Assembly (NCBI GenBank): GCA_002189035.1
Contig: CM007989.1
Coordinates: 8,436,001-8,500,000, forward strand
DNA length: 64,000 nucleotides
Reading direction: 5' to 3'
Origin: Utricularia gibba
Taxonomy: Eukaryota > Streptophyta > Magnoliopsida > Lamiales > Lentibulariaceae
Below the pieces are notes generated by a model. It saw only the letters and a program-made list of their open reading frames with translations. It ran no database searches and was not told the DNA's origin. A program made the translations under genes and the position numbers. Below are positions 24,503 through 55,417 of the stretch, piece by piece; within the stretch, counting starts at the first letter, position 1; each line of letters opens with the position of its first letter.

Positions 24503-26189
24503 TTACACGGAATCGCATCCATCATTCCCGCGCGCTGGTTTCTGCGGTGTCCCGGGGATGAGATCTTCTTCCTCCTTTCTCTCTTTGCCCTTCCCCCACA
24601 CCACCAGGTACAGTCCCGCTACGATCACCACGCCTCCCAGCACCCTGTCCCATGATTCAAAAAATAAATAAAGCCAGATAGGCCTAGTGTGTTGCGGCGA
24701 GTTTGCTTACTTTCCCAGTGTCATTTGCTCTGCGAAAACAAAGGAGCTCAGGACGGCAACTATGACCATGTTCAGAGGGTTGAAGGCCGTCACAAAGACC
24801 GGCCCCTTGTCTTTCATCACCACGCCGGAAAGATAGTATGTGATCCCCGATGAAACTATCCCCTGCACTTCAACCTCCTCAGTGCATATATTTGAATATC
24901 CAGGGGATTTGTTTGTTTGTTTGCTCGCTTTTTTCTTTCTAAGAAGCGTATTTGCTGTCTATTATTTGAGTGAGAAACATACCCCGTAGGCATACCCCAA
25001 TAGCTTCATATCCCATCCCAATCTCCAAATGGCAGTGTTCCCTCTCTCAGCCACCAGGGTGACGACCGCGCCTAGCAGGGCGCCCATGGTGCATATCAGC
25101 GCCGTCAGTGTCAACCCAGCGCAGTAAGATTTCAGCGTGATCGACTACCGTATCCACAACAAAAGCTTCAATTATTTAGAAAAACTTTTTGGGATGCGTA
25201 GAATTACGAGTGTCCCACCTGGAGGATGAAGAACAAGGAGTAGCCTAGGCATGCCGCAGAGATCATGATTGCACCCTTGATTGGATCAGGTCGATCGTAC
25301 GGGTTTTGGTGGGATGGGACTGTGGAGGGGGGTGAGTCCATGGCAGCCCGATGACATAACCTTTCACGAGTGTCATCACCATCGCCCCACCGAGAGCCAC
25401 CAACGTCCCCACTATCATCGCATGGCTCCTCAGTTTCCTCATATCCACCCTCTCAATCCTGTCCGAAATGTGTAGAAAAGAACTCATCAACTATACCCGC
25501 ATCAAAAGATCAGCAAGCACAAGGGTACTCTGTCAATCTTTCATGCTTGTGTTGACAGACTACCAAAATATCGGCATAAAATATGAATAATGTTTTCGGA
25601 CACCAACCTGAGGATCCAAGCCACGAGAAAGGTTATCGCCGGAAGAAGGTTGCATAAGGCGGACGTAACCGTCGGGGTCGTGTATTTCATTCCCTCGTAG
25701 AACAAGTTCTGTGCGAGAACGGGGCTGCGTTTTCCAAGTTGTTTGATTTCAGAATTCGGCGTAACGCAAAAACATGGAGGAAGAAAAGACAGAGAAACTG
25801 GAGGAGCTATTGGAGAGAACCGTACTCTAGAAACCCGAGCAGCATGATCTTCAGGAAGACTCCCAGCGTCATTGGAGGCCTGGATTTCCTGCCACCCGTA
25901 AACACAGGTTCAATAAAGATGAAATAAGTTGCTCCAGATAACATCAATCAAACAGAAAGAGACATTTTGTTCGACTTTGAAATCCTAACCTCTCACAGAT
26001 CAAAGCAAAGGGCGCCAAAACGATAGCGGCGACGGTGCTCCGGTACAGCGCAAATGTGTAATGGTTGGAGCCCTGGTTCAACGCCGCCTTTGCAACAAGA
26101 GCGAAGCCAGCGTACCCGAATTGCAAGAGGATGACATAAAGAAAAGGCCTCAAGTTTTTGAGAAACTTGGAGTTGAGATTGAGGTCCAT
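24503..26189 (-). CDS. WAT1-related (nodulin MtN21, EamA) transporter, copy A, with frameshift
   Basis: Seven exons (26189-25990, 25888-25826, 25724-25608, 25458-25219, 25144-24983, 24862-24711, 24644-24503) encode an EamA/DMT-type transporter of about 358 aa once one base is allowed for. Family marks in order are GYAGFALVAKAALNQG, KSRPPMTLGVFLKIM, NLFYEGMKYTTPTVTSAL, GGAMVMTLVKG, NTAIWRLGWDMKLL, SGITYYLSGVVM and PVFVTAFNPLNMVIVA, matching ten membrane spans. WAT1 itself exports auxin from the vacuole, and relatives carry amino acids or other solutes; this one's substrate is unknown. Exon 4 is one base short: after GLPWTHPP the frame must shift to reach NPYDRPDPIKGA. One more C in the six-C run at 25327-25332 (G on +) fixes it. 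The last exon ends in a charged tail. Confidence 0.85.
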
Positions 26190-26714
26190 ATCTTTTTTTC
26201 TGTGTCACGATTTTGCATGGGGAGGAGGAACCTTAAATAGGCGAGTTTCGGGGACCAATGAAAGAGGAAAATGTATTATTATTGCCAATGACTCATTACG
26301 CTTTAAGGTTTGTGGAGGCCGTGTAATCTAATCATGTCACCATCTTCTCCTATGCTTTTTATCTCTGGCGCGGCAAATAAAGAACTACTCACCGGACAAG
26401 TATCCACAAAGGATGATGTTGAATCGATCAGAATCAAACCCAAAACAAAAAAAGCAAAGCAAACTTTGTTTGGGAATAAAGGCAACATATTTTTTAGTCG
26501 TGTTAATAGCAATTGGGGCTTGGTACGTTGTAGCAAAAGAAGCATTACCACATAAAGAATTAACACATGTTTGTCCCCAACAATGCACTTTGTCAGGGAA
26601 AAAAAATCTATCATTCTCCAAACAAGGTTAATCTCCTCCTCGCACACGTTTATTCGCCCCTTTACTTAAGCAAGTGTTATCCCCCCTCTAATATCGTTTG
26701 TCGTTGCTGTCTGA
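26190..26714. other. Intergenic region between tandem WAT1 genes
   Basis: 525 bp holding the promoter of copy A and the 3' flank of copy B. No recognised coding sequence; overlapping ORFs on both strands are AT-rich and unassigned. Confidence 0.5.
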
Positions 26715-28258
26715 CTAAACAGCATTAGGACCAGAAGCTGCCTCTGATTTATCCTCATTCTGCTCCTGAGTTGAAGAATTTGTAACCGCGTTCTGGTGTT
26801 GTGGTAGTACCTCTTTTGCCTTTTGGTCCTTGCTCTTACCCCATATCACCATGTAAAGCCCGATGACAATCACCAAAGCTCCAGCCACCCTGCAATTTTC
26901 ATTTACTGAGCATTTGATTTACATGAAACTGAGAAGATGCAAATAACTTACTTTCCGACCGTCATTTGCTCTGCGAAGATGAAGGAGCTTAGGACTGCGA
27001 CGATCACCATGCTTAGAGGATTAAACGCCGTAACGAATACAGGTCCTTTCTTGCTCATGATTAAACCGGAAAGATAGTAAGTTATGCCTGAAGAGACAAC
27101 TCCCTGCACCAAAGTTGGTATATATTTAATAATCGTATTGTTTTTTCATTCAATGGGGATTAATGATTTTTACCCCGTAGACGTAGGCCAAAAGCCTGGC
27201 GTCAAGTCTGAGGATCCAAATAGAAGTGTTGCTCCTCTCCATGATGAACGCGACAACAGTTCCGATGAGTGATCCCAATGTGCAGATCATTGCTGTCAGC
27301 GACATCCCCGCCGGGTACGACTTCAATGTGATAGCCTGGAGAATGTAGAAGAGAGCGTAACCGAGGTTTCCTGCGCTGATCATCAAGGCGCCCTTGATGG
27401 GATCGGGATGATCATTGGGATTATTGGAAGCATTGACACCACGGGATGCATGAGTCCATGGGAGTCCAATGATGTTGCCTTGAACCAAGGTCATGATCAT
27501 CGCCCCACCGAGAGTCACCAAAGTCCCGATAATCTTAGCGTAGCTTGGTAGCTTTTTGAAGTTAACCCTCTCGATCCTGTGTTAGAGAGTCGAAAAGATA
27601 AATAACACGATGATCATGAAAGAAAAAGCACACACACAAATGAGCTGCAGCCTGCAGGCTTTGGTTACCCGAGAACCCAAGCCAGGACAAAGGTCAAGGC
27701 AGGGAGAAGATTGCAGAGGGCTGAGGTCACGGTCGCGGTCGTGTACCGCATTCCAGCATAGAACAAGTTTTGGCCTATCACCGGGCTGTTCCATACAAAG
27801 ACAAGGATGACACATTACAAACTACTTAGCCAAAAACTTTTAGGGACTAGGGTCTCATTCTCCTTTGTAAATACATACACTAGGCTGAATGAGGACATCA
27901 TTCTGTATCACTTACTCAAACAGGGCGAGGAGGACTATCTTGAGGAAGACACTGAGTGTCATTTTTGGCCTGGTTTTCCTGCAAATGAAAATCATTTTGA
28001 ATGATAACTCATGCTTGGTGTCGAACATGGAAACCAGATTCGAAAGCATAGACAGATAGATCCAAACCTCTCCAAGACAAGTGCAAAGGGGATAAAGAGA
28101 GCGGCGGCAATGCCATTTCGATAGACGGAAAACACATAATGGCTGCTACCCTGGTTCAAGGCTGCCTTAGCGACGATGGCGAAGCCGGCACTACCAAACT
28201 GGAGGAATATAACGACAATGAACGGCTTCAAATCGCGCAGGATCTTGGAGGAATTCAT
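26715..28258 (-). CDS. WAT1-related (nodulin MtN21, EamA) transporter, copy B
   Basis: Six exons (28258-28068, 27978-27916, 27785-27669, 27576-27174, 27103-26952, 26889-26715) give 366 aa with no lesion. Motifs parallel copy A: GSAGFAIVAKAALNQG, KTRPKMTLSVFLKIV, NLFYAGMRYTTATVTSAL, GGAMIMTLVQGNIIGLPWTH, NPNDHPDPIKGALMI, NTSIWILRLDARLLAY and GPVFVTAFNPLSMVIVA. Two EamA repeats (about ten membrane helices) are expected, with a hydrophilic acidic C-terminal tail. Copy B lacks the intron that splits copy A after ILQ, so its exon 4 equals copy A exons 4 plus 5. The start at 28258 (MNSSKILRDLKPF) aligns with the start of copy A. The same orientation and intron phases show a tandem duplication. Confidence 0.92.
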
Positions 28259-29060
28259 GATATCACAAAAGGGAGCGAGAAGCGTGTTGGAATGAAGCTG
28301 CATGAAGAGGGGATTTTATAGCGTAGAGATGTGAGTCTTGGTAAAACTTGGCGAGTTTGAAACAAATATACCATTCAATTCAACTATCTTGAGTGTTCAA
28401 CTATTATCTCTGATAATATTCCTCTCGCCAACCACACAGTCGAAAAGATATTTGTATCTACAACTGCTGCTGTGACTGCTCCAATTCCATGCAACGTACC
28501 AAGGTATCGTGGCCTGCGTTTTATTCATCATTTTCAGTGTCGGATATCTTCAGATGGTGCTCATAATCCCCATGCACCGCAGTCCGTACGTGCGCAGTGG
28601 TGGCCAACACAACACTGCTTTATTTGGATATTTGAGTCAAACCCCAGGAAACAGAATGTGTTCGTTCCATTAAGTTACAAAATTGTCCTTTTTACCAACA
28701 AAAGGGAACAGGGTCAATACAGGAAACATATATACTTTCCTGTGGAGATGGTCAGATCAGACTTCCAACAACCCCAAGTAATCAAAAAACAACCAAACAA
28801 ACACGTGCTTATGTGATTGCACTTCGGACCAATTTGCTCCAAATAATTTTCCAATTTTAATTTTCGAAAATATATATTACGACAAACTGGTCTCTTTATC
28901 TTCTAAAACCTTTGGGTTTGCGTTGTTGGAATTCCAGCGCCATAAGCAAAGGCGCATGCTTAATCTGACTTCCACTTATTCCAGGAAAAGTGGCTTTTGG
29001 AGACCCCATCGATTTCCTGCACGGTGAACCTGGGCCACAGCGCGCCCACTTTCATTCGAG

Positions 29061-29102
<42 letters not shown>

Positions 29103-31700
29103 ACCGGAATTCATGAGGTTTGTCGAAATTCATGGGACTATCGAATTAAGGCTGGGTGGATGAGGAGCTGGGCTCTGTTCTGCCTACCTGAAGAAGATTT
29201 CACGGCATCGCTGACAGGGTGAAGTTAGTGGAGTAAGAGGGTGGAATATAATATATCTCAGAATCACTGTCCCTGATGACGTCCGCATCTTTGGGGACAC
29301 GCCGTCGTTAGTGCTTTAAAAAAAATGACAATAATAACGCACTAAATCAATCATTTTTCAGTCCCATGTGCCCTCGGCTTTTTTACAGAGGGTCCAGCAG
29401 CATTATTTGAGCACCCATTTCGTCTTATAGGTGCTGTCCAAGTAACAAATTGCCTGCTGTCAAAATGGATGCATAACCTGACCAGACCCCATGGACTAAA
29501 CAGAAAGCAAGGGTGACTCTTCCAACCTCCACGTGCTCCTCCAGCATCATCGGTATCTCTAATAATACCATCGCATGCGCCACGGTCGCTTTGTCTTTCA
29601 CTCCATGATATGATCATCCTCATCACTGGCATATCATTCTTTCTTTTTGGGCAAAGGACTACAGCCTCTATGAATGGGCGTGGGGCATACACTCAATCAT
29701 TCCTCCAATACATGCAATAAAAAAGGTATCTGGGTTCCAAAGGTGATTGCTCTATCACTCCATATTCATACATACATACATACATACGTGCGTTCGATTC
29801 AGATACGGACTTTTGTCACTCCTAACACTAATTATTTCAGCAACTAAACGCCACAAAGATTGGTGTTGCCTCGAGGAGGGATGGACATTTGTAGCCACAT
29901 AATGCGGCGATCCCTCCCTCCCCTTCCCTCAGCTGATAGATATCTTTTTATCTACACGAAGATGGTTGGCTTTCAAAGGCAAAGGCACCCACCCTCCACA
30001 TACAAATTTATTGTCAATCCATTCCATAGTGATTCGGAGTCAGGAGCTCCTCGGCATGTCATGGAATCAAGTAAGCAAAAGCACCAATTCCCGTAGGCTG
30101 CTTTTGTGGGCGGACTGCCACTGCCACCAACCAACATTTGATGGATGGTCGTATGAGTTGCTTTTATTGACTAGAAAATTGGGGATGGATATTTGAATTT
30201 TGAGCTTTCGTCCACCTTTGAATCATCCAGTCAACTGCAATGACTTTCCCTTTGAGGCTGCCAAGTGTTAGCTAAAAAAAACTTGTTGTATTTTATTTTA
30301 TTTTATTTGTATCTGATAGTATGCAAACATATCATAAATCATCTTTTTTTTTTAAGTGTAATAGATTATCATAAGATGTATTGAACGTTTAAAAGAGCAG
30401 ATTACTATATTGTGGTCAATACAAGTACTAAACATCAGATTATAAATAAAGAAGACTTGCTAGTAAAATAAATATCAATCTTTGGTTATCGATTATGAAG
30501 AAATAGACTATCAATGTTTATGAATAAAGATGATATTTGTGTGGAGTCTATGTTAGAAACGTCAGATTATCTTTTTATTTTATTTTATTGTAAATACGTT
30601 AGAAGATAGTGAACAAAATTATACTTTTGACGTGGAAGTGTTTAAGTCAATGGAATCAAATGTGTTAATGACAAGTCTTCCACATAATACCAACATGTTG
30701 TTAGCGGAGCAAATTTGGAGAACTGTGATTTTAATGTACAGGTATATTTGGTATATCAGACACGAAATTTTTTGGGGATGGACATTCTTACCGAGCTTTT
30801 ACGGTTCTAGTTGATAAAGTTCAACTGCAACTATTTTCATTAGATATATAATAAATGAAGAAGAAGATTGCATGTGTATTCAAATAAATGATTATTCGGA
30901 TCATCTTCGACAATTTGATGAAATACTCATCATCGATCATCTTGACAATTTCTATTTTTACCGCATTTTAACACACCGCTTTTATTTGTACGTATTATAT
31001 AGATATTATTGAAAATTTGAATCTTACTATTAAAAACCTGGCATTTTTAAATATTATGTATCATACTTGCCAAAGACACATGAGAGTGAATATGTGTGGA
31101 GAAGGTGCTTCTCATCGTTCCATTCTTTTTATTATCAGGAATGCTTCTATTCTTGCACCGCAAAAGGGGCAGCATATTCTTCGGTTCAAATGAAAAACCA
31201 CAATTTTAATTAATGCGCCCCCATTCCATTCCCAAAGGAAATAAATTCCCTTACAACTCTTCTTCTTCTCCTTTTGTTAACCCCTTTTTTTAATTTTCTA
31301 TATTGGGTCAGGGTGTGATTCTCATTCTACTAGACTAGATTACTACAGTGGGCCTGTCCAAAAATAATAATACCAAAGCCTGAAGCCCATTTAGTCAGCG
31401 GCCTGAATTTGGAGGGTGCCGATTGCCATATCATCGATCCATCCCATGCCTACGCCGCCGCGCCAGCATCTCCTTCGCCTTCCTGATGCAAAACAAAAAA
31501 AACAACGCCGGATTCACGCCTCTCTTCCTTCAATTTTTACAAGCAGGTTTTCTTGGGCGGTATTTCCGGATAACGTGTACCATGAAGAAATTAATAATAT
31601 TGTCGTGTTTGTGAAAAAATCATAGTAATAAAAGGTGTCCAGACACGGATACTTTCTCTGTCACTGATGGTAACATGTTACTCTGGAAGCATGAGTTGAA
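28259..31700. other. Gene-poor, AT-rich spacer
   Basis: No gene recognised over about 3.4 kb. It includes an AG microsatellite (29065-29098), CATA-type repeats near 29770-29787, and a strongly AT-rich section (about 30240-31100) with repeated TTTTATTTTATT blocks near 30295 and 30575. The only ORFs are short or of odd composition. It may be decayed transposon sequence, but no terminal repeats or transposase were seen. Confidence 0.55.
29065..29098. repeat. (AG)n microsatellite
   Basis: 34 bp of uninterrupted AG repeat in the long spacer between the WAT1 pair and the AHL gene. Confidence 0.95.
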
Positions 31701-32506
31701 ACCAACTGTACTCCAATGGCTGGCTGGCTTTCAAGTCTTCCCGTCAGATCCTTACACACCAGCTCCCTGGCCTGGAACAACAGCTTCCTACAATCTCATT
31801 TCAAACCCCTTCAATTATTCGCTTCCAATTTAAACAACAGAAAGTGGAATCCTTTCCTTTGCTTTTCTTGTAACTTAACAGCTCAACTTTTACCATTCCT
31901 TCTCGCTTTTGTCGTTATCCTTCCCCAACTCTCTCTTTTTCTACCCATTCCAAATCTAGGGTTTCTCTTCTGTCGCAACTTCTGGATGCGTTTGATATCA
32001 GCCGGAGATCTTAATTTTGAGCTGGGTACATATGCACCCCACATTTTTCATTTTGAGCTGCGTTGTCAATCCATTTCCTTCAAACAGTCCTTTTTGAGCA
32101 ACATTCTCAGATAAGTTTGAGGAATTCGTGCTGTATTCTTCACTCCCTCCATTGTTTGTGGAGAACCCATTATAAACGTCTGTTAAAGATTTCGATTTTC
32201 CCTGTTTTAGTGTTCTGGGTTGTGCCTTTTCTCTTTTATTTGGTCGCCTAAGCATCCTAGTCTTATGAATTCTCAGTTAGTTCAGTTTCAGACGTTTTCA
32301 TCCGTTCATATTGGAGAAAGCGTCATTAAACTTCTGCCAAAGATTTCAACCTTTTCAAGTTCAGTGTCCTGCTCGTGTTCTTTGCGCTCCTGTTGGTATT
32401 GCTCCTCCTGGACTTCTATTTGATTCAGTTTCAGGGTGCGTTAGATCCATTTCAAGTTTGAATTACGTTGATTTATTTCAAAGTTAGAATTTTACCTTGT
32501 AAATGA
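31700..32506 (+). other. Probable 5' leader and promoter of the AHL gene
   Basis: T- and C-rich sequence typical of plant leaders. A 132-codon ORF at 31716-32114 has biased composition (Phe, Leu, Ser, Pro) and resembles no protein. Diverged repeats such as TTTTGAGCTG (near 32016 and 32050) suggest old local duplication. A CAG site near 32433 may be the acceptor of a leader intron. Confidence 0.4.
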
Positions 32507-34269
32507 ATGGACGGGAGAGAAGGAATGGCATTAGCAGGCTCCGCTGCTTATTATCTTGGTAGAGGTGTTGGTGCCAGCGGCTCAGGCCCAGTACCGGTTC
32601 ACGGAAGTGGTGGTGGTGGGTCGCCCTCTGCTCAGAATAGTAGAGTTCATCATCCAACGCCTAGTTACAAGAACAGCACAAATCCCATCATTCCATTTCA
32701 AACTAATGTTGGCCTTAGTGGAGGTGTTGCAACCAGCTCACCCTTTCATCTAGAGAATCCGCAACCTAGTTTTCCTCATAGCATGAATGCCGCTCCACTT
32801 TCAGTCGGATCACAAAGCAGTCAACCTCTGAAGAAGAAAAGGGGTAGGCCTAGGAAATATGGTCCTGGTGGGGCTAATATGGCTTTAGGTTTGTCTCCAT
32901 TGTCTGCTCCAAAGTTTTGTTCCTCTGAGGTTATCAGCTCTGGGGAGAAAGGACGCCGAGGGCGGCCTCCAGGGACAGGGTGGAAGCAGAAACTTGCTCC
33001 TCTAGGTATGTTCTTGCTGTTTCTGACTGTATGGTGTTCGTTTTTTGCTGTTCAATCTCTAATTAACTGTAAGCATGCGTTTTATCTTTTGAGGTTATAA
33101 TTGAGAAATAAATTAGTAGCTTGCTTGGGTTTGTGAATCTTAAATAGGATGAAATAGAAATAGTTGGTAGTTTTGAAATTTCTAGTCGTTATTCCTTTCA
33201 CCTTGTCATCAGAGTGAACGGGTTCTAAAAGGAGCAATTTTCTCGGCCAAGCTGTTGTGATGGCCATTGTATTCAGTCAACATCTTTGTTGTAGATTTAT
33301 TTTCTGTCCTTTTTTTCAACTTCTTCAAAGGAAATTGTGGCTAGGTTGTAGATTATTACTGCTGTTTTTCATTCCATTGTGACCATTTCGAACATTTAAC
33401 CCCATATGGCCCTGTCTTGCTAGGTGAATGGATGAACCGATCGGCTGGACTAGCCTTTACGCCACATGTCTTGCGTGTTGGAGTTGGAGAGGTATGGTGC
33501 AGATGTGTTGGCCTTGTCTGTGATAAAATGGATGAACTTGAGGAATTTTTGCCACAATTGATTTCAGGATATTTCTGGAAAGATCCTTGCATTTGCACAA
33601 CAGAGGCCAAGGGCTTTATGCATCATGTCTGCAAATGGATCAGTCTCTACTGTGACCTTGCGCCAACCAGCAAATGCTGGTGAAACCATAACATACGAGG
33701 TAAAAATTACTGGCAGGGGGATCTCATCACTTTCTCATTTATGGCTGAGATGGCGTTAACTATTGTAGGGTCGTTTCGAGATACTGTGTTTATCGGGCTC
33801 ATACTTGGTTACTGAAACTGGTGGTCCTGGTGACCGAACTGGTGGTATAAGTATTTCAGTTTGTAGTCCTGATGGTCATGTCATCGGAGGTGCAATCGGT
33901 GGTAAACTCATCGCTGCGGATCCAGTTCAGGTACAGATTCTTAAATCCATTGTAGGCAGCTCGGAGTTCACCATATCGCATCATAAAGACATGCCATGCT
34001 TATCATCTGTAGTTTCACTGCATCTGCCATTGGTTGTGCAGGTGGTTGGTTGCAGTTTTGTATACGGCAATGCAAAAGTTAAGAGTAAAGGTGATTCAGC
34101 AACAGGAAAGGAAAAACTTGTTGAACGCCCCTCCGAGAAATCTCCTGCTCCGGTTAATACCACCCCAACTCTGAGTTTCACTCCTGCATCCGGACCAAGT
34201 GTCTGGCCGCTTGTCTCCCGTTCCGAAGTTGGGAATTCGCAGAAAGACATCGACCTCACGCGTGGATGA
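32507..34269 (+). CDS. AT-hook motif nuclear-localised (AHL) protein, type II
   Basis: Five exons (32507-33005, 33424-33491, 33568-33699, 33769-33930, 34042-34269) join in phase to 362 aa. Two AT-hooks with RGRP cores sit at about residues 112-115 (KKKRGRPRKYGPGG) and 151-154 (GRRGRPPGTG). The PPC/DUF296 domain runs from about 175 to 300 (FTPHVLRVGVGED, PRALCIMSANGSVSTVTLRQ, GRFEILCLSGSYL, GGPGDRTGGISISVCSPDG, VQVVGCSFVYG). Two hooks plus PPC define AHL type II. AT-hooks bind the minor groove of AT-rich DNA, and the PPC domain forms trimers and contacts other regulators. The N-terminus is Gly/Ser-rich and the C-terminus Ser/Pro-rich. Expected in the nucleus; the target genes are unknown. Confidence 0.93.
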
Positions 34270-35055: not shown

Positions 35056-35063
35056 TATATAAA
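35056..35063 (+). promoter_or_regulatory. TATA box of the DREB gene
   Basis: TATATAAA lies 138 bp upstream of the chosen ATG at 35194 and about 70 bp upstream of an earlier in-frame ATG at 35128. It is a strong match to the plant TATA consensus in a GC-rich context. Confidence 0.65.
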
Positions 35064-35193
35064 GGGACGGGGTGGGGGTGTCTGGCTTCATTTATTTGGG
35101 AAGCCTGAGCCAGGAGAATCGGAACCTTTGACATGTGGAAAAGAGCATCTAAACCACTTTCATAAATCTGTCTCCAGTCTGCATTATTGGAAG

Positions 35194-40521: not shown

Positions 40522-42724
40522 TCAGAGTTCATCGTGAGGAAGATCTCTAGAATGCAACGGAGTTGGCTTCTGATTATCAGCAAGGTACATTACGGCCAGG
40601 GATGCGTGAAGTGCAGCACCTAATGGGAGTCCGTTTTCATCGATTCTGAAATATGGCGAGTGTGCTGAGAAGGGCTTGCTGAGAGTTGGATCCTTCATCC
40701 CGACAAAAAGGAAATAACCTCGCATTTTTTCGAGATAGAACGAGAAATCTTCCGATCCCATGACTGGTTGCATCTCCTTAACTGCAGCAACACCGAACAT
40801 GTCCCCTGCAACATTTCGAAATAACTTGTGCATCCCTTCATCGTTAACCACAGGTGGGAAGAAAGGCTTATCTTCTGAATCAAAGGTCACGGTTGCATTG
40901 CATCTCTGCACCACAGCTTGTCCAATGATAACCTGCTCTATTCGCTGCTTAATTTGTTCAAGTTTCTCCACTGAAAATGCTCGGAAAGTGCCTCCAATGG
41001 TGACAGAGTCTGGAATAACATTGAATGTACCACCGCCTCCATGGAATTGAGAAACTGTAATAACCTGTCCAAAGGAATCGTCAGTTCTGTAATCAAACTA
41101 CAAAGTAGGAGACCTCTTTAATGTGGCAGTGCGGAGTCAGTTGCTTGGATACGACCCAGTGAAAACTCGCTTATTAGATCTGATCTTGAATTTTTCTAAA
41201 GTCAGTTTGCGGTGCCACTTTGGTCAATGGATGAAAAAGATAATGACCAACCCAACTCCAACTGCTAATTTGTACCTGAGAATCAAGAGGATCGGCTTCT
41301 CGAGAGACAATCTGTTGCAAGCTGACAACAACATTCGAGGCAGCTAATATGGGTCTATGGCCTGTTGGGGTATAGCAGCATGGCCTCCTTTTCCATTGAT
41401 CACAGCATGAAACTGGCCACTCCCTGCTAGAATTGGACCAGGCCTAGATGCAACTTCACCCACTGGTAATGTACTGTAGGAATGGATGCCAAAAATGGCC
41501 TCTACATTCTTAAGCACGCCAGCTTCCATAATAATTTTCGCCCCTCCACCTCCTTCCTCTGCTGGTTGGAAAACCAGAACAACAGTCCCCTGTATCACCA
41601 TAAAACAACCTTGATGAAAAGTCCTCCTATACAACACCCCATGGTGCAAAGATTATTGCTCTTTGGTAAAAGGAGCATCTGAAGATCGGTAACTCTCAAT
41701 TTAAATCCAGAGTCATACTGGGCATGGAAGCATAAGAAGAAGTAGGCCATTCATTCACAAAAGTGTGACAAAGGAATCGGCTGGTGATTGGAAAGAGACG
41801 CAAACCTTTAAAAGTTGAACATTATCATGAAGAATTTTAGCAGCACCAAGGAGCATTGCAACATGAGCATCGTGTCCACAAGCATGCATCAGTCCAGGTT
41901 TCCTACTCTTATGCTTCCACTCCACCTTTTCCTATTTGAAGCAAATGCCATTTAATATTCATCCGTATGACAAGAAAACTATGTTACCATAACGGACGGT
42001 TGACATGATTGGTCGACTCATACCACTCTATATTCGTGTGTTTTGGCCAGTTCATATACAGCTCAGAACCATGGATCTAAACTAAACAACGAGTCATGTT
42101 TGGAGGGACTGGTTGATGATCGAGCCTTTTCGACACTGTAGCGTGCCATAGACTAAAACCCCATCACCATAACAGTTTTGTTTAAATAACAGAGAAATTA
42201 ACGCGTAGAGCATGAAGTAAGCTGGGAGAGGGAGGACACCATAGCGCGGGAGACTCAGATATAAAACTGCAATATCTCTAAAAAGAGAACGATCTCAAAA
42301 AAGCTATCTAAGAACTCAACAATTAAAGATCTAGAGAAGTTTAAAGGATGAAGGATGCAACCTCCACTCGAAGAGCATCCATATCTGCCCTTATTGCAAC
42401 AACGGGAGGTTCCCCTGTCCCAATATAACCGATTACACCAGTAACTGCTACAGGATAGGTGTACTTAATTCCCATCTTATCCAGCTCTTCTCTAATCAGT
42501 TTACTGGTCTCGAATTCTTGAAAGCCTAATTCAGGATTTTCGTGTATTTTTCTTCTGATGCCTACCATCCAATCGAAAACATCGGATTTATTTGCTGCCG
42601 CGAGAAAATATTTGGGGGTCTCCGATGGCTGTGACGGATTCAGACTCGAGTTTGCGAAGATGGGTTTGGAAAAATACGTCAGGATGAAGAAAATCGAGAG
42701 GATCAGCTTCCAACAAACCACCAT
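40522..42724 (-). CDS. IAR3: IAA-amino acid hydrolase, IAR3/ILR1-like (M20 family), with frameshift
   Basis: Four exons (42724-42362, 41931-41806, 41589-41276, 41064-40522) encode about 448 aa after allowing one missing base. Residues 1-25 form a signal peptide ([13 protein letters not shown] core), and the protein ends HDEL, so it should reside in the ER. Catalytic and metal motifs of the M20 amidohydrolase fold are present: [46 protein letters not shown] and [11 protein letters not shown]. Such enzymes release free auxin or jasmonate from amino-acid conjugates and use Mn2+. In exon 3, after QQAIDP, the frame closes at TAG. Reading one extra C in the CCC at 41353-41351 (minus strand) restores [20 protein letters not shown], which matches IAR3. 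I therefore treat it as an intact gene with a probable sequence error. Confidence 0.87.
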
Positions 42725-43317: not shown

Positions 43318-45668
43318 TTAATTGCCTCTTCTTGAAGAATGGGCGGATGAATCTGATTTTTCAGCCAGATAGTGTTCAAGCATATCTTCTTCATCATCTG
43401 CGTACCAAATACAGGAGTAGATACTTTAGTCATTTGCAAGAAACTAACAAAGTCTGAAAATGATAAAGAATGCATGTTACCTTCAAAGTCATCATCAAAA
43501 TCAATATCCTCCGTGTCTTCATCCGAAACATCTTCAACAGGTACCCCGCCTTTCTGCAATCAACAGATCGACCATATAAATACCATCACAGAGCATCATG
43601 ACAAAGTAGGTCGAAGAAGGGCTCCAAATTCCCATAACGATGATCCAAAGAATGGCTTACAGAGGCGGCTCTTCCACTCTCGAACCATTGCCTTCCTGTG
43701 AGCTTTTTCTCCTTGGTTGCAGTAAGAGCCGAATCAGGCATCAACCTAGGAATAAAAGAATTAGGGAAGTTCTGAATGAGCTGAATCAGGAACTAGGAAG
43801 TTGAAAGTAGTTTTATTTTCCGGTTTATGACGAGCTTTCTAAATAAAATTCTACATGAGATTTGGTTTTTGATAACAATTTAAAGACAAACAGAATCTTT
43901 AATTGACAAACTACCATTTAAGACACTATCACTTACAGTTGAAGAGTTAAATTAACGACTGAAACTCACTTGGCTCTTTCGAGTGCTAATTCAGCTTCAT
44001 ATTTCTCCCTCCAAGCCAAAAATGTGTCTACTGTTACTGGTTCTCCATGTGGTATGACAATCTGAAAAGAAAAAGGATACACAGATCACCGAATTGAGTT
44101 GACCCAGTAGTCAGGCGTATGGGGTTGAAAGATGTACTGTGCATTCTCATCGGCGATGTGTCTACTGGAGAAGGAAGTGGGCAAGCCCGTGCCTATGGTG
44201 GCAGAAATAGTTCTTGTCTTTAAAAAAATTAGTCGCTAGGTACAAAAAACACTTCTTTTGTTGCTTCGAGCAAGCAGTTGTCTCTATGCTAGAATAAAGG
44301 TTAAAAAAAATAACCTCATCTTTCGTAGACACATCTTCTGTCGTATCATCCAAACCAGAATCATGAGAATATCTTTCAGAAAGCCATTCCTTAGCTGATG
44401 CGACCAATGTGTAGATCATGGCCATACCAAGATTGTCATTTGCCTGTAAGGTCCATGAGACATTCAAGTGCGCATTAAAAAGGGTCGTATGCCATTATAT
44501 ATCAGGTTCAAGGGGCAACTTCAGTTGATCAATGGAGCAGGTTACGCTCGTTGTAACAGAATTAGGTAGCAGATTTCACATAAGGAGGCATCATGCTATT
44601 AAATATAAATGCGATAATTTAACAAAGCTCCAGGTCTTACCTCTTGTTCCAACTTTTCCTTCAGAGCTTTAAGTTCCCCAGGTTGAATACCCTTTAAACT
44701 AAATTCAGATAAATAGAATTTTAGGATTTTAGGTCTGCTTAGCAGAAAAGACTAACCAAATAAAGAGTGAATAAACTCAAAGACAACACTTAAGTAAAAG
44801 ACAGATGAAACCTTTTCAACTTGAGAAGTGGGGGTTCATCAGGATAGTTTTCTGTATGCGAAAAAATCAAGGCTAGTTGAACTGCCAAAAACACCCGGCC
44901 TCAGATTAACAAGAAGCAATACTTGAAGATCATCATATAAGCTATCAAACCTGATGAACCAGTTGGTTCGTCTGACTCATTATCCTGTTTGAGAAAAAAG
45001 GAAAAGGAACGTACTCCTTTAGGTGGGAGATGAATAAGAAAGATAGCAAACATCCATCCTTCAGGACAGATGGATATAGGAAAAACATAATTTACCTGAG
45101 GAGAAAGTGTTATCTGGAAGCATCGAGAGGAAGTAACTAGATCACTTTCACTAGAACGAATTTCTGGTAAATCAAAATTATCAAGAAAAATGACTCATTA
45201 CACCTAGTCCCAGCAGATTTTCTAGGGAAAGAAAAACAAGAAAAACAAGAAAAACAAGAAAAACAAGAAAACCAAGACTGTGTATCTGAAGTGCAACATA
45301 CCCCTAAAATCATCCATTAAAATTGCTTCTAAAGCTTCGATCTCCATGTCTTGCTCTTGTTGATAGTCTGCCCAAAAAAGCATTTGTGATAATAAAGACC
45401 ACAGCTTTACAACTGCTAAGGAAAGGTACATCCACGAAAATGCATTGACGAACGACTCTCAATCAAAGCACATCAGCAATAGTAGCTCAACGCCTTTAAT
45501 AGAATTTTGAGTAGCGAGTGCGGCGCGAGTAACAGTAATAAATCATTCCCTGGAATCCACTTCTTAAATTTTCAATCTTTTTGCTTTTTTTTTAGGAGAT
45601 CATGAACAGAAAATGTTCTTTTTTATGATGAACAATAAAGAACCGAAGATAATGAACTTACCAGTCAT
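43318..45668 (-). CDS. RWD-domain protein, RWDD1/At1g51730-like (DFRP2)
   Basis: Eleven small exons (45668-45662, 45367-45302, 45163-45096, 44984-44951, 44881-44812, 44698-44641, 44443-44315, 44061-43970, 43745-43661, 43553-43481, 43397-43318) join in phase to 253 aa. The RWD domain covers about residues 1-125 and carries EQDMEIEALEAILMDDFR, RCFQITLSPQ, VQLALIFSHTENYPDEPPL and NLGMAMIYTLVASAKEWLSE. A helical segment (FLAWREKYEAELALERAK) and the conserved KKLTGRQWFESGRA follow, then an acidic tail (DVSDEDTEDIDFDDDFE) ending MLEHYLAEKSDSS. RWDD1-type proteins are the DFRP2 partners that stabilise DRG-family GTPases linked to translation; this role is from the family. The first coding exon is only seven bases (ATGACTG). 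Confidence 0.9.
45231..45272. repeat. 9-bp minisatellite (AAAAACAAG)n
   Basis: About four and a half units of a nine-base A-rich repeat, lying in the intron after exon 2 of the RWDD1-like gene, close to its donor site. Confidence 0.85.
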
Positions 45669-46401
45669 GGCGCTTGGGTGTATGATGATTCGTCTTCGCT
45701 CAGGAACTTTTAGAAAAATCGCCAAATCCTTAAATTGAATTTCAGAAAATGAAATGAACGCGAAGGAGCAGAAGAGAAAGTACTTCCCCAGGAAGAGCTC
45801 AAGGTTCTGAAGAAATGCAATACCACAAATCCATCATGATCTGCCAGCCGCGGAGCTATCAGGAAAGGGGAAGCGGACGCAAAACAGACTAGATTTTTAT
45901 TTTCGAAGACGCTTTTTCATTAGCAAGCATCTAATATGTAATTTACCAAACAAGGACGCGGGTATTTTAGTCACCAAGACCACTAGGGTTTTGACTGGTT
46001 CGTCCCACTCCCGGATGGGATAATCAAGAAGCTCCTCTGTCTCGTCAGAAAGACAGAAACGTATCTCCGGTGTAAAATGGTTTGCTTAGAGTGGAAGCCA
46101 AAAGGCTAGGAACGTGTGCATTCACGGCCACGGAGAGTGGTGGGCTTTTGGGATCTTGGGCGAGACCTATATATTAAAGCCCAAGCATTGTAATTGGATT
46201 GGGTCAATGGATCCGACCTTATAAGCCCTAGTTGCTCATTGTGCCCTCTCCTCGGGTCGGGTGTTAGCACGCGTACGGCGTAACCCGACTCGACGAGGGA
46301 AATCAATCAAATTGAAATAGGGCAATTGACAGCCGGAGGCACAAATCCCTGTCCTCTCTGCGCGTCGCTCGCTGACTCGTGCCAATCGTCGGAAGTTCGC
46401 C
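45669..46401. promoter_or_regulatory. Bidirectional promoter, RWDD1-like (-) and CHMP1 (+)
   Basis: 733 bp separate two divergent housekeeping genes. It contains a telo-box (CTAGGGTTTT at 45983-45992, i.e. AAACCCTAG on the other strand), another AGCCCTAG near 46224, TGGGCT near 46141, AAGCCCA near 46177, and a TATA-like TATATATTAAA at 46168-46178 that may serve CHMP1. Telo-boxes and TGGGCY elements are common in promoters of growth-related plant genes. Motif calls are by eye. Confidence 0.5.
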
Positions 46402-47013
46402 ATGGGGAGCGCGGAAAAACTGATGAAGCAGATCATGGAGTTGAAATTCACTGCTAAAAGTCTTCAGAGGCAGGCAAGGAAGTGCGAAAAGGAGGAGAAG
46501 GCCGAGAAATTGAAGGTCAAGAAGGCGATCGAGAAAGGAAACATGGATGGCGCGCGGATCTACGCCGAGAACGCAATCCGCAAGCGCAACGAGCAGATGA
46601 ACTATCTCCGTCTTTCCTCCCGTCTGGATGCAGTTGTCGCGAGACTCGATACGCAGGCCAAAATGACGTCTATCGGCAAGTCGATGGGGAATATTGTCAA
46701 ATCACTCGAATCATCTCTGGCTACCGGAAATCTGCAGAAGATGTCGGAGACTATGGATCAGTTCGAGAAGCAATTCGTGAACATGGAAGTTCAGGCCGAG
46801 TTCATGGAGAGCTCTATGGCGGGAAGCACGTCGCTTTCCACGCCGGAGGGAGAGGTCAACAGTCTCATGCAGCAGGTGGCTGATGACTATGGACTCGAGG
46901 TTTCTGTTGGTCTGCCGCAACCTGCTTCACATGCCGTAACCGTTCAGAGCAGTGAGAAAGTCGACGAAGATGACCTCAACCGGCGTCTCGCTGAGCTGAA
47001 ATCCCGCGGCTGA
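46402..47013 (+). CDS. CHMP1: ESCRT-III subunit CHMP1/VPS46
   Basis: Intronless, 203 aa, the normal length. The Snf7-fold helices are clear: a basic N-terminal hairpin ([56 protein letters not shown]), the middle segment [17 protein letters not shown], and an acidic C-terminal half. The tail [16 protein letters not shown] is a MIM1 motif that binds MIT domains of VPS4 and LIP5. CHMP1 acts at multivesicular endosomes in sorting membrane proteins, including auxin carriers, to the vacuole; this is family knowledge. The ATG at 46402 is in the strong plant context GCCATGGGG. It shares its upstream region with the divergent RWDD1-like gene. Confidence 0.96.
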
Positions 47014-48531
47014 TCTTCCTGCTGCAAGCGCGCATCGGTGTTGTCATTTCTTATAGGTATATGGTATCCATCCCTATATGTATTGATGTATGGACGCTAT
47101 TTTTTCCTTGGACTGCTCCAATTCTGCTATGGTATGCTCTCCCTTTGTTATGTGGTATTCTTCTGGCATGCTGTGTTTTCTGTATTGAGATTCAGGTTTA
47201 CTACCTACTCGCACATTAGACGACCTTTGCTAAAAGGCAACCAAACGGGCACCTCTTGTGCCCTGTGAAGCTTCACGACTGGTAAATATCAAGGTGCTGC
47301 TGCATTAGATTTTTTCCAAGTCACTAAAATTGAATTGATCTCCTCGGGACTAGAATAGAATACGTTTGGAAGCTACATGGGCTGCTGGCTGTTTGGTGAT
47401 GTTATCAGGCACTGATAACATTCGTTTTTTGGAAACTTCACATTTGTTTTTTGGAAACTGATGAAAAAGATAGCACCATTTTCCAAACCCCCAAGTTCCC
47501 AAAACTAGAAGAATTTTGGGGTTTTGACTATTGATTGATTATGCTTCTCTATGATGTTTTCCCCCTGTTACCACCGAGTGGAAATTCCGTTGATTGTGTG
47601 TGGGGTTTTCCAAAGCGGATGAGTAGCGCTAGGCAGGGCGTGGAGGAGAAATGTGTGTAAGATTCGCAAGCTGGAAAGGTGATCTACCGGTTTATTTGAG
47701 TTGAGGTTAATCGGTGTTTACCAAAGATTTGCAAATTTTGGTGCGCTGCGGAGGCATATTTTTAAAAGCTTGGTCTTCCGGTGAGCTGCATATTTATGGT
47801 TTCATGTGTAGGAGGGTGATGAATGATGCGAGAGATGGATCTAAGCATTTTTGAAAAGTTTACACATGGTCATGAGAAGAGTTGATATTTTATACATTTT
47901 TGTATAGTTATAATAAGTTAATACATATACATTTTTTATCATGAGAAAAAGAGAGATATTTTGTACACTATGGCTTGAGTATAACCAGTAAAATGTTTTG
48001 TCTTTGTCTCAGATAGATAGATAGATATTGGGACTTTGGAGTTGGTTAGAGTATGGTTGATAGGCAAAAATGATTGCTTACTCAAATTCTGAAAAAATGA
48101 TCAAATAAATAAATGTGTAGTTGCTGGGCTGGGCTGGGCTTTTGTGGGATCTCGCTCGTAACAAAGCATACACCTATCCTTGCCAACATAAATAAATAAA
48201 AAAGGATTGGAGAGGGAGCCGGAAAATTGACACAGAAAGGCAAGTGAAAACTGCAAATCTTTTTCCTGCTGTGTGTACATACATACCTACACATGGTGTA
48301 TCTATAGATAGAGCGAGCGAGCGAGCACATCTGAATCCTCCTGCTCATCAATCTCTGTATGCGCTCCATGGTTGAGAACGAAATCCATCTTGGGATGCCC
48401 TTTCGATTTTATACCGATTCTCGCTTCTGAAACACTTTACTCTCCACTGGAAAGGCAACCGGGGGAAATCATTTTTGCTTTCTGCTGCTGCTTTAATCAT
48501 TTTCGGTGATTTTTCTCGATTCTCGAAAGGG
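47014..48531. other. Spacer between CHMP1 and the B55 gene
   Basis: CHMP1 3'UTR, then AT-rich sequence with a GATA repeat near 48011-48026, GGGCT repeats near 48124-48140 (TGGGCT-rich) and GAGC repeats near 48311-48326. The GGGCT block may belong to the B55 promoter. No further gene recognised. Confidence 0.5.
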
Positions 48532-51500
48532 ATGAGCGGCGTTTCCGGTGACGGAGAGGTGGCACCAGCTTCAGCGGAGCCACCTTCCCCGCTGGAATGG
48601 AAATTCTCTCAGGTCTTTGGCGAGCGGACGGCGGGGAGGAAGTGCAAGAAGGTAATAGCATCCACTAGCGAATTAGGAAATAATTTGTTTGGATCTCGTG
48701 GTTAGGGTTTTATTTTAGTGAATTTTGATCTGTTCCTGAATCATTACTGGGATGACTCATTGAGCACTGGAGTACGCGATCTGCATGCCAGGGTCGCTGA
48801 TCCAAAATTGGGCTTTCAAAAGTGGTCTGCGCGAAATGGTTTCATGGCAGTTTTATTTTCTTTTTTGTTTACTCTGAGAAAGACTCCTCGTTCTCTTTTT
48901 TTTTTATGCCTACTCTTATGCGTTTATTGCTCAAGTCATGGGTTTACTTTTGCCGCCATATCTTTCACTGGATCACATGCAGTGAAGTTCATATTAGTAA
49001 GCTCTAAATTGTAACATTTATTGAAACTACTTTTGCCGTTATTAATATGTTGCATTTATAACTCTACTCTAGCTTGGGATACTGGTCTCATGATTAGACC
49101 CGTGCAAGAGGCAACATTCCATTTGAATCCAAAAGAGTTGAGTGTATAAAAAATCATAAGCGCTGTGTTCTGGCCGTATCCCTATTCTGTTAATCCAACT
49201 TTTCTTGAATTAAAAGTTTCTATTTGAACCCAAACTATTTTGATGTCTGCCTCCTTTCCATGATGTTCAGTTGATATCATTTCTGCAATTGAGTTTGATA
49301 AATGTGGTGACCATCTGGCAACTGGTGACCGTGGTGGGAGGGTGGTGTTGTTTGAAAGAACTGATGTAAAAGAGGTGTGTCCCCTTTGAACATAAAATGG
49401 CTTCCTATATGCTGATGCAGTCATTTTCATTGGCTCTCCAAATGTATCTGCAGTCCGGAAGATCACGGAGGGATTTAGAGCAGGCAGAATATCCCGCCAG
49501 TCGCCATCCAGAATTTCGCTACAAAACAGAATTTCAGAGCCATGAACCTGAGGTCTTTATCTCAAATCACAGATCATCTATTTTACTACAGTTTGATATT
49601 TCTGCTTTTTTTTTTTAATTTCAGTTAGAAGTTGCTTCAAGGCATTTCTTCCTTTTCTCATGTTTCTTTCCTCTGATTCAAATATTCTAGAGAGGATGTT
49701 TGAATAACGCTGTCTGTTTGTATGCGTTTATTCAGTTTGATTATCTTAAAAGTTTGGAGATAGAGGAGAAAATCAACAAGATTCAGTGGTGCCAGGCGGC
49801 CAATGGGGCTCTTTTTCTGCTGTCCACTAATGACAAGACCATCAAGTATTGGAAGGTATGACATGCAATTTCGTTGCTTGACAACGATTGGAAACAATTA
49901 ATGCAGTATGTTATTAAGGGGTTACACATAACTGCTCTGCGGGAAAATCAATTTTAAGGCTTTAATATGATTCTTTTTCCAAGGAGAGAGATGTGCTCCA
50001 TGTTAAATATAGAATACGTAGTGAATCGTTCATTAATGGAACTTTCACTTAGTTTCTGTTTCCTTCTTTATAAGGTATAATTCCATTGCTCTGAACAGGT
50101 TCAGGAGAAGAAGGTTAAGAAAATATCTGAAATGAACGTGGACCCGACTAAAATTTCTGGAAATGGTAGCATAACAAGTTCAAGCGTGCCCTCCAGCTCC
50201 AGGCCAGGCCTTTCAAATGGAAACTGCTACGGCCAATCTTGCAATTCCTTCAGCAGTGAATTGTCTTTCCCTCCTGGGGTATCCCCTCACTTCGGTTGCC
50301 AGTGGTAGTTGTACTTGCCTGAGCCACATTTTCTTTGGAAATCAGTGCATACGTATACATATGTATATTATATCCTACTTTATTTTCTGCTGCTTCATTT
50401 GGTCATTTTTCTGACTGTATTATGATAAACCTGCATCTCTTCTTTGTCTTTTATTTATTTTCCTTTTCTATGCAACCAGTATATTTTCATATTGAACTTC
50501 TGTAAAAACTCATCTACAAGAACACATGGGCAGTCTCGTTGCAAGACGTAGGAGAGTCTATACCCACGCTTGACTATTTGGAATTTGCCAAAACTTTTTC
50601 AGCTTCTTCTTATTGCTTTTTCTGATACACATGGTCATTAATTTTATAGGTCACCAGCAGCGAAACCAATCTTGTTGCAAGATGTAGGAGAGTCTATGCC
50701 CACGCTCATGATTACCACATTAATTCCATCTCAAGTAACAGGTCATGCCCCCTTTTCAAGTTATTCTGTAACGACCAACTCATTTATTCTCTTCAAGCTC
50801 TGGTTTTTAATGCTTAAGAGGTGTTCTTTTGCATCATTGTAAAATCACTTTTTTCTTAAAGGTGGTTTACACACCACACTGCTTTTCACTGTTTTACAAA
50901 GTACCGTGTGAAATCCGTTGCATAGCCTGACTTTTTTTTTTTTTAATAAAATTGAATCTTTAACCTAGTTTCGTGGGGTGAGTTTCAGTTCTTTTCTTTT
51001 TGTGCTCAATGAATTGATAGTTTATGAATAATGCTCAACAGTGATGGCGAGACATTCATATCTGCTGATGATCTGCGGATAAACCTTTGGAATTTGGAAA
51101 TAAGCAATCAGAGCTTCAATATTGTTGATGTGAAGCCAGCGAATATGGAGGATCTCACAGGTTTACTTGCAGTGTTGTGCTGCGTTTGTGCTAATTCCTT
51201 TTCTTTCCCTCTTGTCAATTTATCCATGTCTTCATTTTTGGCTCCCTTGAGTTTCTCTAAGGAATATTCTGGTCCCTCATAAGTTTAACAAATGAATTTT
51301 TGTTTTTTTTTTTGTGAAATGCAATGTAAAGTAACCTGGAACCTGAATTGTGTATGGCCCCATTTTATTTCACCTTGATTTTTAATGTGCTATCCTTCAT
51401 GATGTAGGCTATATATCCTGCCTTCTCTAGATATTGTTGTAATTTGTGAAGCAATTTCCAGTATTTTGTTAACTGCAGAGGTCATAACATCGGCAGAGTT

Positions 51501-52870
51501 TCATCCCACTCAATGCAATACGTTAGGTTACAGTAGCTCAAAAGGATCTATCCGTCTTGTTGATCTGAGACAATCTGCATTGTGTGATTCACATTCGAAA
51601 CTGTGAGTGCTTTATCAACCAGGTGTCTCGTGAATTATGCAGTGCTCTCCCGAAAAACAAATTGGATATGAAAGGATGTGAAATTGGATTTCTTGCAAAC
51701 AGATTTGAGGAGCATGAAGCACCTGGCTCGAGGTCATTTTTTACGGAGATAATTGCTTCAGTATCAGATATTAAGTTTTCAAAGGATGGCAGGCACATAC
51801 TAAGCCGTGATTATATGACTCTCAAGGTTCCAATTTTTAGTTGAAGCATTTTTCCTTTTTGTTATTGTGTATGTCTATCACCGAACTTGATAAAGGAAGA
51901 TGGGTCAGTACTTCTCTTGTATGCCTGCTGTAATTATACTAAGAAGCTATGATGTTTCTTGGACATCTTCTAGTTTCTTATATGCTGCAGCTCTGAAGTT
52001 TTGTCTATCTTTGGAATATGATTTTGCTGGAAGTATTCATTTATGTTCACTGCTGGTGTATTTGATATAGATTTTTTTATTCAGTTGTGGGATATTAACA
52101 TGGATGCTGGTCCGGTGGCAACCTTTCAGGTTCATGAGTATTTAAGACCAAAGGTGATCATAACGGTGGTTCATGGTTATTTTTGAGGTATTTCAGTCAT
52201 GGACAATGTTTTCGAACTAACGATATTCCAACTTGAAAATGTCCAGCTGTGTGATTTGTACGAGAATGATTCCATTTTTGATAAATTTGAGTGCTGTCTG
52301 AGCGGTGATGGTCTCCGAGTGGCAACTGGTTCTTACAGGTTCTGTATAGTTTTGCCTTTTTGTTTCCCATCCTTCATCTAATACACTGTCGAAAGAACGT
52401 TTCTTATGATCTCAGCAATCTGTTCCGGGTTTTTGGTTGTACTCCTGGAAGTTCTGAGGCAGCCACACTGGAAGCAAGCAAGAATCCACAGAGGTACTTT
52501 TTCCGTGAAAAGTTAGTTGATGCAGTGACACATCATTCGTGTATTGCTTACCACCAAAAATGAATTTTTGACCTTTAAAGGAGGCAAATACAGACACCTT
52601 CAAGGCCTTCCCGATCCCTTGGCAGCAGCATCACTCGTGCCGTTCGAAGGGGTGCATTTCCCTGTTCTTCTAGTCTATTTTCTTAGTCATGCATTTCAGT
52701 TTATCTGAAGAGTGAGTAGCAATTGTTTTATAGGTGCAGAAACTTCAGGGGTCGACGCCAATGGGAATTCATTTGATTTCACAGCAAAACTGCTCCATTT
52801 GGCCTGGCATCCCTCAGAGAACTCAATAGCCTGTGCTGCTGCGAACAGCTTGTACATGTATTATGCATAA
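48532..52870 (+). CDS. PP2A regulatory subunit B55 (WD40), with two frameshifts
   Basis: Fourteen exons (48532-48651, 49271-49374, 49454-49552, 49736-49855, 50099 to about 50307, 50650-50741, 51042-51160, 51479-51602, 51703-51826, 52085-52153, 52247-52338, 52416-52493, 52581-52651, 52734-52870) give about 519 aa once two bases are allowed for. B55 signatures run throughout: [110 protein letters not shown] and SLYMYYA at the end. The seven-bladed propeller selects substrates of PP2A. Exon 1 (GCGGGGAGG, 48633-48636) and exon 5 (CTGGGGTA, 50276-50279) each lack one G relative to the family frame. Splice sites and everything else are intact, so sequence error is likelier than a pseudogene. Confidence 0.9.
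50535..50570 (+). repeat. Decayed duplicate of part of B55 exon 6
   Basis: 36 bases in the intron before exon 6 match exon 6 bases 50671-50706 at 33 of 36 positions, all three differences being transitions. Read in the exon frame it would give [12 protein letters not shown] and then a stop, so it is not usable coding sequence. Confidence 0.85.
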
Positions 52871-53590
52871 AATGTGCGCTCCCACGCTGTATTGCAAACA
52901 CATTCATGGTTTTTCATTTTGACAGTGCCTCACCGTTTTTCTGACATGAAATTACCTCCACAGGCTCAGGCTTCAGGTATGGAAAGTATTGGTACCTCTT
53001 AAAACCAGCGAAACGAGGCATCGGTGGGGGCAATATATTCCTTCAATTTTTTGCTTCTCTAAGAGAAGGTTTCTGGTCAGGATGCCTGAAAGCCAGCCAC
53101 GTGATTCGCAGCTCTCTTACAAATAGGATGACTGAGAGGTAAAATGATAACTGTTATTACCTGAGGCGGATGGAATCGTTGCTGCGAACTTGGGGCGACT
53201 GCAGTCCAGTGGGTGGCTGCGACCTGCGTCTTTATAATTCCTATTATTATTATTATGATCATGATTATATTCTAGGATGATTCTCGTTGTCTGTCTGTAG
53301 ATTCCATACAGTATTCCCTTTGTACAACCCTGGCTCGGCTTGTATGTTGCTTTGCCTTCCCTTCCCTTCCCTTCAAACCGCCAACGGGTTGCATACACGA
53401 TTCACCACCTTCGTTTTTTTACACAGAATCTGCTGCATCTCTTGTTTTTAAACGGGCTGGTGGGCTCGTCGGGGCCATTTTGATGAAGGATAATTACACG
53501 TTCTATAAACGAATCGGCATCTGGTGCGAACGTCATCTCGCAAGTTGTAACTAAACCTCCCCTCTGTTCCACAGCCGAAATTCTACCGGA
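52871..53590. other. Spacer between B55 and mini-RNase III genes
   Basis: B55 3'UTR and the RNase III promoter. It contains ATT/ATG-rich sequence near 53236-53262 and CCCTT repeats near 53357-53374. No coding sequence recognised. Confidence 0.5.
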
Positions 53591-55417
53591 ATGGCGGCCT
53601 CGTTTCCTTTGTCCGCAGCCTTTAGAGCCTCTTCAGTCGACACCGAACAGCGGATTCCTTACAATCCTCACAGAACGTACCCTAGGAAAGCAGAATCTGC
53701 GGCAACCCCGTTAGCGTCCGTTTCTTCAAGATCACCGGGAAAGAGCCCCAAAAATTTAATCATCTCGGAGCTTCTGAGACGAGACATTCCCCAGAATACT
53801 CATGGTACTCGTCGATTAGCCTACTCGAATTAATTTTTCTTGTTTCTATTCATTTCAAAGTCCGATAGCTCATTTTCCCTCCATGTTTATTTGTCTGTTT
53901 TGTAGTCTAGTACTGTAGTATGCTATTGGGACCTTGTTGATAGTGAAACTCGTGTAGATTTCACGGGAGGATACCAGTTTGCCCGGTTTATACGTCCTGT
54001 GGCTAGCTCCTCTGAGAGCTCCGGCCTTCTGTTTCCAACTTGGATTGTGGAAACATTGAGTCTGTTTTAGTACTGATTAAAGACCAGGCTTCAGCGAAAT
54101 ATCTGTACTGTTTGAATTTCCTAAAGAGTCGGGGTGGTGTACGGGTGTCGTCCGTCACACACAAGCTCCCTATCAGTTTTTTTTTACTCCCGTTGTGTGC
54201 ATTCTACTTTTTCGTTCTTTTCATTTTTTAATCTGCTACTGTGGATATTGTGAGTCGGCCATAAATGTTTCAAACACCTAAGTTGTTCTATTGGTGTAGT
54301 GGAATTAAATGGGCTTTACTTGGGGTATGACACATGGCTTCCCCCGCACCAAAAGTGGAGAGGCCCAAATCTGTGTTGAATCCTGCATCGTTAGCTTACA
54401 TTGGTGACTGCGTGTACGAGGTTTGCTTTTGATGACCTGCTTTCTTTTCATGCCATGTGGGTGTCATTCTTTGTGCGTGTGTGGATGGGGGTGGGGGCTG
54501 TTGTTTGGTGACCAGTGGGGGATTTTCCTGACGAATGCCTCATTATTTGGGCGCAGCTGTATGCTCGCAGGCACTTTTTGTTTCCTCCCCTGAACCTCGA
54601 TGAATACAATGACCGCGTCATGGCAGTTGTACGTTGTGAGGCCCAGGTTCTACATCGTGTTGTCTATGGTTATTACCTACATATAATTCTGCTAGTTCAG
54701 TCGTGGTACCAATGCAGGAGACTATGCTGCAAAATCTTGTAAGTGAGAACGTTTTATCACAAGAGGAGAGGTTAGTTTTTCTCACTCCCGCTTGCTTCTT
54801 TCAGTTATTTGATTGCATTATACCACTATTAGTACTTTTCAGAACGAGCGAATGTCTCCAGTACATTATTGGATTAGTTCACCGAATGCACTCCATCTTC
54901 ATGTCTTCCTGGCAAGGTGATTGCACTTGAGTGTTATTTATTTTATAATCCATCTGCTGAATAGGGATGTGCTGCGTTGGGGAAAAAATAGTGGCTCCTC
55001 CAAAACAAGGTCAAAAAAGAGAGCAGGTGCAGCAGTTTACAGTAGAGCAACGTCTTTAGAGACACTGGTACGTTTCTGCACCCGCTAGATCAAATATATT
55101 CCTAGAGCACCTTGACAAAAAAATACAGCAATCCCCGCCCCTGTGATGCTTTCATTGTCTCGTGTTGTCCTCCCCGCCCCGAGTTGTAACATCCAAAGTG
55201 AGTGCTGTCAATTCTTGTTGAGGCCTCCTCCCTAATCGGAAAGCGCTACTAGGCTTGATGTCCTTGTGTTTTGATGACTTTCCTGCTTTCTGTTTAGGTC
55301 GGTTATTTGTATCTTACAGACCAGCGGCGCCTAGATGAGATCATGCAGAAAATCGGCTTCTCCACCGACATATCTAGCATTCCCAAAACGGCCGGAATAG
55401 GCAACGCCGAAACGTGA
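53591..55417 (+). CDS. Mini-ribonuclease III family protein, probably plastid, with frameshift
   Basis: Six exons (53591-53804, 54300-54420, 54557-54646, 54718-54770, 54965-55067, 55298-55417) give about 233 aa when one base is allowed for. The first 60 residues are rich in Ser, Ala and Arg with few acids, as in a chloroplast transit peptide. The RNase III domain follows without any dsRNA-binding domain, as in Mini-III: SVLNPASLAYIGDCVYELYA, EYNDRVMAVVRCEAQ, LRWGKNSGSSKTRSKKRAGA, ATSLETLVGYLYL and RRLDEIMQKIGF. Plant Mini-III enzymes (RNC3/RNC4) mature plastid 23S rRNA and trim introns; that role is inferred. In exon 2, after YDTWLP, one C is missing from the five-C run at 54341-54345 before APKVERPKS. 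Confidence 0.87.

Follow-up and report, generated by a model that had tools for sequence, protein, structure and literature searches.

One-base losses at C/G runs as the probable cause of five frame breaks in a window of the Utricularia gibba assembly

Conserved reading frames break five times within one window of Utricularia gibba DNA (the whole stretch of 64,000 nucleotides analysed here, C1:8436001-8500000), and these breaks are very probably errors in the assembled consensus rather than mutations, produced by the under-calling of C and G in a PacBio-only assembly. Losses of the same kind affect genes that are otherwise intact on many contigs of the assembly examined (100,091,633 bases in 516 contigs), and the pattern is genome-wide, reaching well beyond the window. 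Most likely, the sequence is a PacBio-only HGAP/Quiver assembly of U. gibba; we infer the platform and the polishing, and with them the longer runs that the plant DNA itself would carry. The five sites, with the run found at each and, for sites 2-5, the residues on either side of the break, are as follows:

Site 1, 25327..25332, minus strand: WAT1-like transporter copy A; run G6, read as C6 on the coding strand.
Site 2, 41351..41353, minus strand: IAR3/ILR1-like IAA-amino acid hydrolase; run GGG, break between QQAIDP and ILAAS.
Site 3, 48633..48636, plus strand: PP2A regulatory subunit B55, exon 1; run GGGG, break between ERTAG and EEVQE.
Site 4, 50276..50279, plus strand: B55; run GGGG, break between FPPG and GIPSLRLPV.
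Site 5, 54341..54345, plus strand: mini-RNase III, exon 2; run C5, break between WLPP and APKVERPKS.

The first-pass annotation had reported frame breaks at these five positions, and a check of the runs together with three-frame translation bore this out: the runs are present as claimed (G6, GGG, GGGG, GGGG and C5 at sites 1-5), the conserved frame is broken at all five coordinates, the family sequence shifts frame by one lost base at each, and the addition of one base restores it. At site 1 the frame switches from VIGLPWTH to NPYDRPDPIKGA, and at site 5 the switch, from LGYDTWLPP to APKVERPKSVLNPASLAYIGD, lies upstream of the mini-RNase III catalytic domain. It had further been proposed that an additional C or G in the run restores the family sequence. 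Restoration by one base stands at every site, and all five are compatible with a one-base loss at a C/G run of three or more, but the identity of that base mostly goes unnamed. At sites 2-5 the loss falls on the third position of a CCN or GGN codon, so that any base restores the protein; at sites 2, 3 and 5 any third-position base fits equally, leaving C or G as the lost base unproven. Taken from the five sites alone, the observation that an added C or G in the run repairs the frame is thus correct, but it says less than it seems to. Protein sequence by itself rarely names the lost base, and the claim therefore needs the rest of the genome.

The direction of the change is clearest at site 1. 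In five paralogues the corresponding WAT1 exon covers all 81 residues of the query in 243 bases without interruption, and a sixth paralogue has an exon of the same 243 bases covering residues 1-80; the exon of copy A measures 242 bases as observed and 243 when restored. Because of this difference, site 1 represents the loss of one base and not the gain of two, and the loss can be placed anywhere within a variable loop of about 25 bases between PWTH and NPYDRPDP. Across site 2, the joined IAR3 protein aligns without gaps to Arabidopsis ILL2 (1xmb), and its nearest other copies in the assembly are only 38-63% identical. At site 5, the mini-RNase III domain matches the bacterial mini-RNase III structures 1u61 and 4oun, and the gene is present as a single copy in the assembly. 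Signs of pseudogene decay, in the form of further independent lesions or lost constraint, were not found in IAR3 or mini-RNase III, both of which are conserved on the two sides of the break. A WAT1-like exon also lies within a near-identical stretch shared by two small contigs (C57:19500-21800 and C66:41023-43323), the copies differing by short indels; a few single-base differences (CC/C, CCCC/CCC and TTT/TT) occur there among longer variants, and the two contigs may be redundant or allelic, or may be foreign DNA.

B55 carries two of the breaks, both of the one-base-loss type. Contig C496 of the assembly holds a close paralogue, and C3 a more distant one. The frame of the C496 copy continues through both sites. 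At site 4, this whole-genome-duplication paralogue reads CCTGGGGGCATC, with G5, versus CCTGGGGTATC, with G4, in the window, and it is in frame as CCTCCTGGGGGCATCCCC, again with G5. Comparison with this paralogue directly favours a lost G at site 4, the only one of the five sites with nucleotide evidence of that kind. At site 3, the paralogue reads GCTGGAGAGG versus GCGGGGAGG in the window and is in frame as GCTGGAGAGGAAGTACAAGAAG; here the lost base could be A, because the paralogue has GGA. Separately, window positions 50538-50570, in a B55 intron, nearly repeat a segment of the exon that follows (GTTGCAAGACGTAGGAGAGTCTATACCCACGCT compared with the exon at 50674); the two differ at two of 33 bases, and this near-copy is absent from the aligned stretch of the C496 paralogue intron.

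GRAS genes, which are mostly intronless and well conserved, served as the genome-wide test. In a six-frame search, many of them fall into two pieces joined by a one-base shift, and reading of each junction gave 20 one-base losses in 14 of approximately 41 genes. Three genes have two losses close together, and one such pair, in L063, can alternatively be read as a single insertion. The PGGPP motif, written in runs of C and G, is the break point in five of the genes. True introns met while reading the break contexts were set aside; thus, the GRAS loci L061 and L068 were rejected as frameshifts and are probably introns. Likewise, L072 and L073 were left out of the count, since they look truly decayed: both appear to carry several different lesions and are probably true decayed GRAS genes. 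The window sites resemble these two copies in having a broken frame within a known family, but they are single one-base losses within conserved exons, whereas L072 and L073 appear to be multi-lesion.

Such decayed copies lend some substance to the idea that the broken genes of the window are real pseudogenes or null alleles, each created by replication slippage in a C/G run, and the whole-genome duplications and gene loss in U. gibba mean that duplicates such as B55 could decay. Nevertheless, about one third of the GRAS genes would then be dead by one and the same lesion type, with no clear insertion and no loss at a long A/T run, and a single motif would have broken in five different genes. 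In the window, the other exons of the affected genes are conserved, and one of these genes, mini-RNase III, is without a second copy. Real pseudogenization is accordingly considered very unlikely.

Every possible one-base insertion around the junction of a GRAS event was scored by comparison with the nearest intact relatives. Loss rates for each base type and true run length were then obtained by an EM fit to the 20 losses, the exposure being 44,112 bases of intact GRAS coding sequence. For C/G runs, the fit gives about 24 losses per 1000 runs at a true length of 4 (approximately 2%) and about 89 per 1000 at a true length of 5 (8-9%); at a length of 6 or more, 7.9 fitted losses stand against 7 intact runs, such that half or more are affected. 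For A/T runs of 5 or more, there are no losses versus 76 intact runs, and the difference between C/G and A/T runs of this length is significant on the fitted counts (Fisher p 5e-5). Relative to run length only, a model that also included base type gained 14.3 in log-likelihood (chi-square 28.6, 6 d.f., p 7e-5). Random one-base deletions simulated in intact GRAS genes provided a null expectation, in which 16% of events were compatible with a C/G run of true length at least 4, 4.5% with at least 5 and 0.7% with at least 6. By comparison, the 14 single GRAS events included 12 compatible with a run of at least 4 (p 2e-8), eight with at least 5 and six with at least 6. Deletions at A/T runs of 5 or more made up 6% of the simulation and none of the data. 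Under a flat prior, most GRAS events name no base; the C/G call rests on the GRAS set as a whole, and individual lost bases are uncertain.

One-base losses were also found in other gene families, with five in 30 PPR loci, three in KCS, two in UGT and two in subtilase genes, all in the same direction as in GRAS. Good fits to a C/G run are seen in the KCS gene L094 (G6 observed) and the subtilase gene L098 (C4 observed); several events in these four families are ambiguous, and a few lie in runs of two or three. With the window included, the events total 37, nearly all of them clear losses and none a clear insertion, the L063 pair being ambiguous. Apparent breaks in several PPR genes were rejected as frameshifts: that in L012 is an intron, and those in L010, in L026 and in the window gene at 39.2 kb are probably introns. 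A pattern search for 18S rRNA as a further test of run length gave no match, possibly because the query pattern was inaccurate. The first-pass annotation had proposed comparing C/G with A/T runs beyond the window, and in the gene families examined the comparison came out in its favour: losses only, concentrated at C/G runs and rising steeply with run length, with long A/T runs spared.

A further possibility is that the consensus errors are real but that their main determinant is not C/G run length and could instead be, for instance, a modified base or a local drop in coverage. Several events do involve runs of only two or three bases or can be accounted for just as well by the loss of A or T (L016, L063, L069 and L070 among them), and the window holds five breaks, yet most PPR genes are open across 500-900 codons. 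Mostly open PPR genes are, in turn, consistent with losses whose frequency follows C/G run content, and on the GRAS events the model with run length and base type exceeds a uniform per-base rate by 37 log-likelihood units. Another main cause is thus highly improbable. The same very low probability is given to the suggestion that the shorter runs are real, in a lineage with a strong mutational tendency to lose single bases from C/G runs and with many genes genuinely broken or rescued at the RNA level. That the cell compensates for the breaks, through programmed ribosomal frameshifting, transcript slippage or tiny introns that have escaped recognition, is scarcely credible: slippage is possible at single-base runs, but dozens of unrelated genes share an identical one-base loss and no common slippery heptamer, the break contexts, as read by eye, contain no shared slippery site or splice sites and share only C/G-rich runs, and a WAT1 exon of 242 bases against a family length of 243 leaves no room for an intron.

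Contraction of C/G runs in the consensus, the explanation preferred here and the one put forward by the first-pass annotation, agrees with the GRAS fit and the other families and is a known type of PacBio error. Single-molecule reads would report C and G runs as shorter than they are; where this bias is common to the reads, the shorter run would be kept in the consensus, and one base would stay missing unless accurate short reads corrected it. Random errors of long reads usually disappear at high coverage, and the bias therefore has to be systematic. The U. gibba PacBio assembly is reported to have been built with HGAP at 88x, reaching a contig N50 of 3.4 Mb, and HGAP uses PacBio reads only, with Quiver polishing (PMC5793159). 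The contraction is partial, because C/G runs of six or more survive in the window. A run of 20 C is intact at window positions 16329-16348, though shorter coding C/G runs have often been contracted.

The closest known parallel is the PacBio assembly of Streptomyces leeuwenhoekii. Most of its differences from the Illumina assembly consisted of a C or G dropped from a run of at least three, with frameshifts as the result, and correction inserted 2934 bases in 7.9 Mb as against 42 other changes (PMC4487206). The U. gibba events share with it the C/G base type, the near-exclusive occurrence of losses and the frameshifts in real genes. The bacterial errors were established by Illumina contigs in a high-GC genome, whereas the present case is built from conserved proteins in a plant window of approximately 43% G+C. 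The five breaks most likely belong to this documented class of PacBio C/G omission error. They are likewise similar to the long-read errors of Watson and Warr 2019 (as cited in PMC8306402), where homopolymer indels split or truncate predicted genes; the nanopore errors measured in PMC8306402 are homopolymer indels in general, whereas here long A/T runs are spared.

Biologically, the artefact is ordinary; its practical importance lies in making working genes look dead. The loss density amounts to 20 in about 66 kb of GRAS, five in about 55 kb of PPR and three in about 22 kb of KCS coding sequence, the coding lengths being hand estimates. Should the explanation hold, the assembly would still lack about one base in every 3 to 11 kb of coding sequence, and this rough density suggests that something like ten to thirty per cent of its genes may be split or truncated or may be called lost. 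Reports that this small carnivorous-plant genome has lost or truncated genes, or shows relaxed selection, would then need a short-read check, and, as the bias is predictable, the sites at risk could be listed by C/G run length. One published truncation, however, does not look like an error of this kind. Truncation of U. gibba DCL3, published with support from 5' RACE (PMC8333044), was considered as a C/G-loss artefact and rejected on the strength of that support and of the pattern at C213:2761967-2762970. This locus has an RNase III pair without an adjacent Dicer_dimer match, whereas such a match is present at each of three other Dicer-like loci; it bears no sign of a frameshift artefact and agrees with the published N-terminal truncation.
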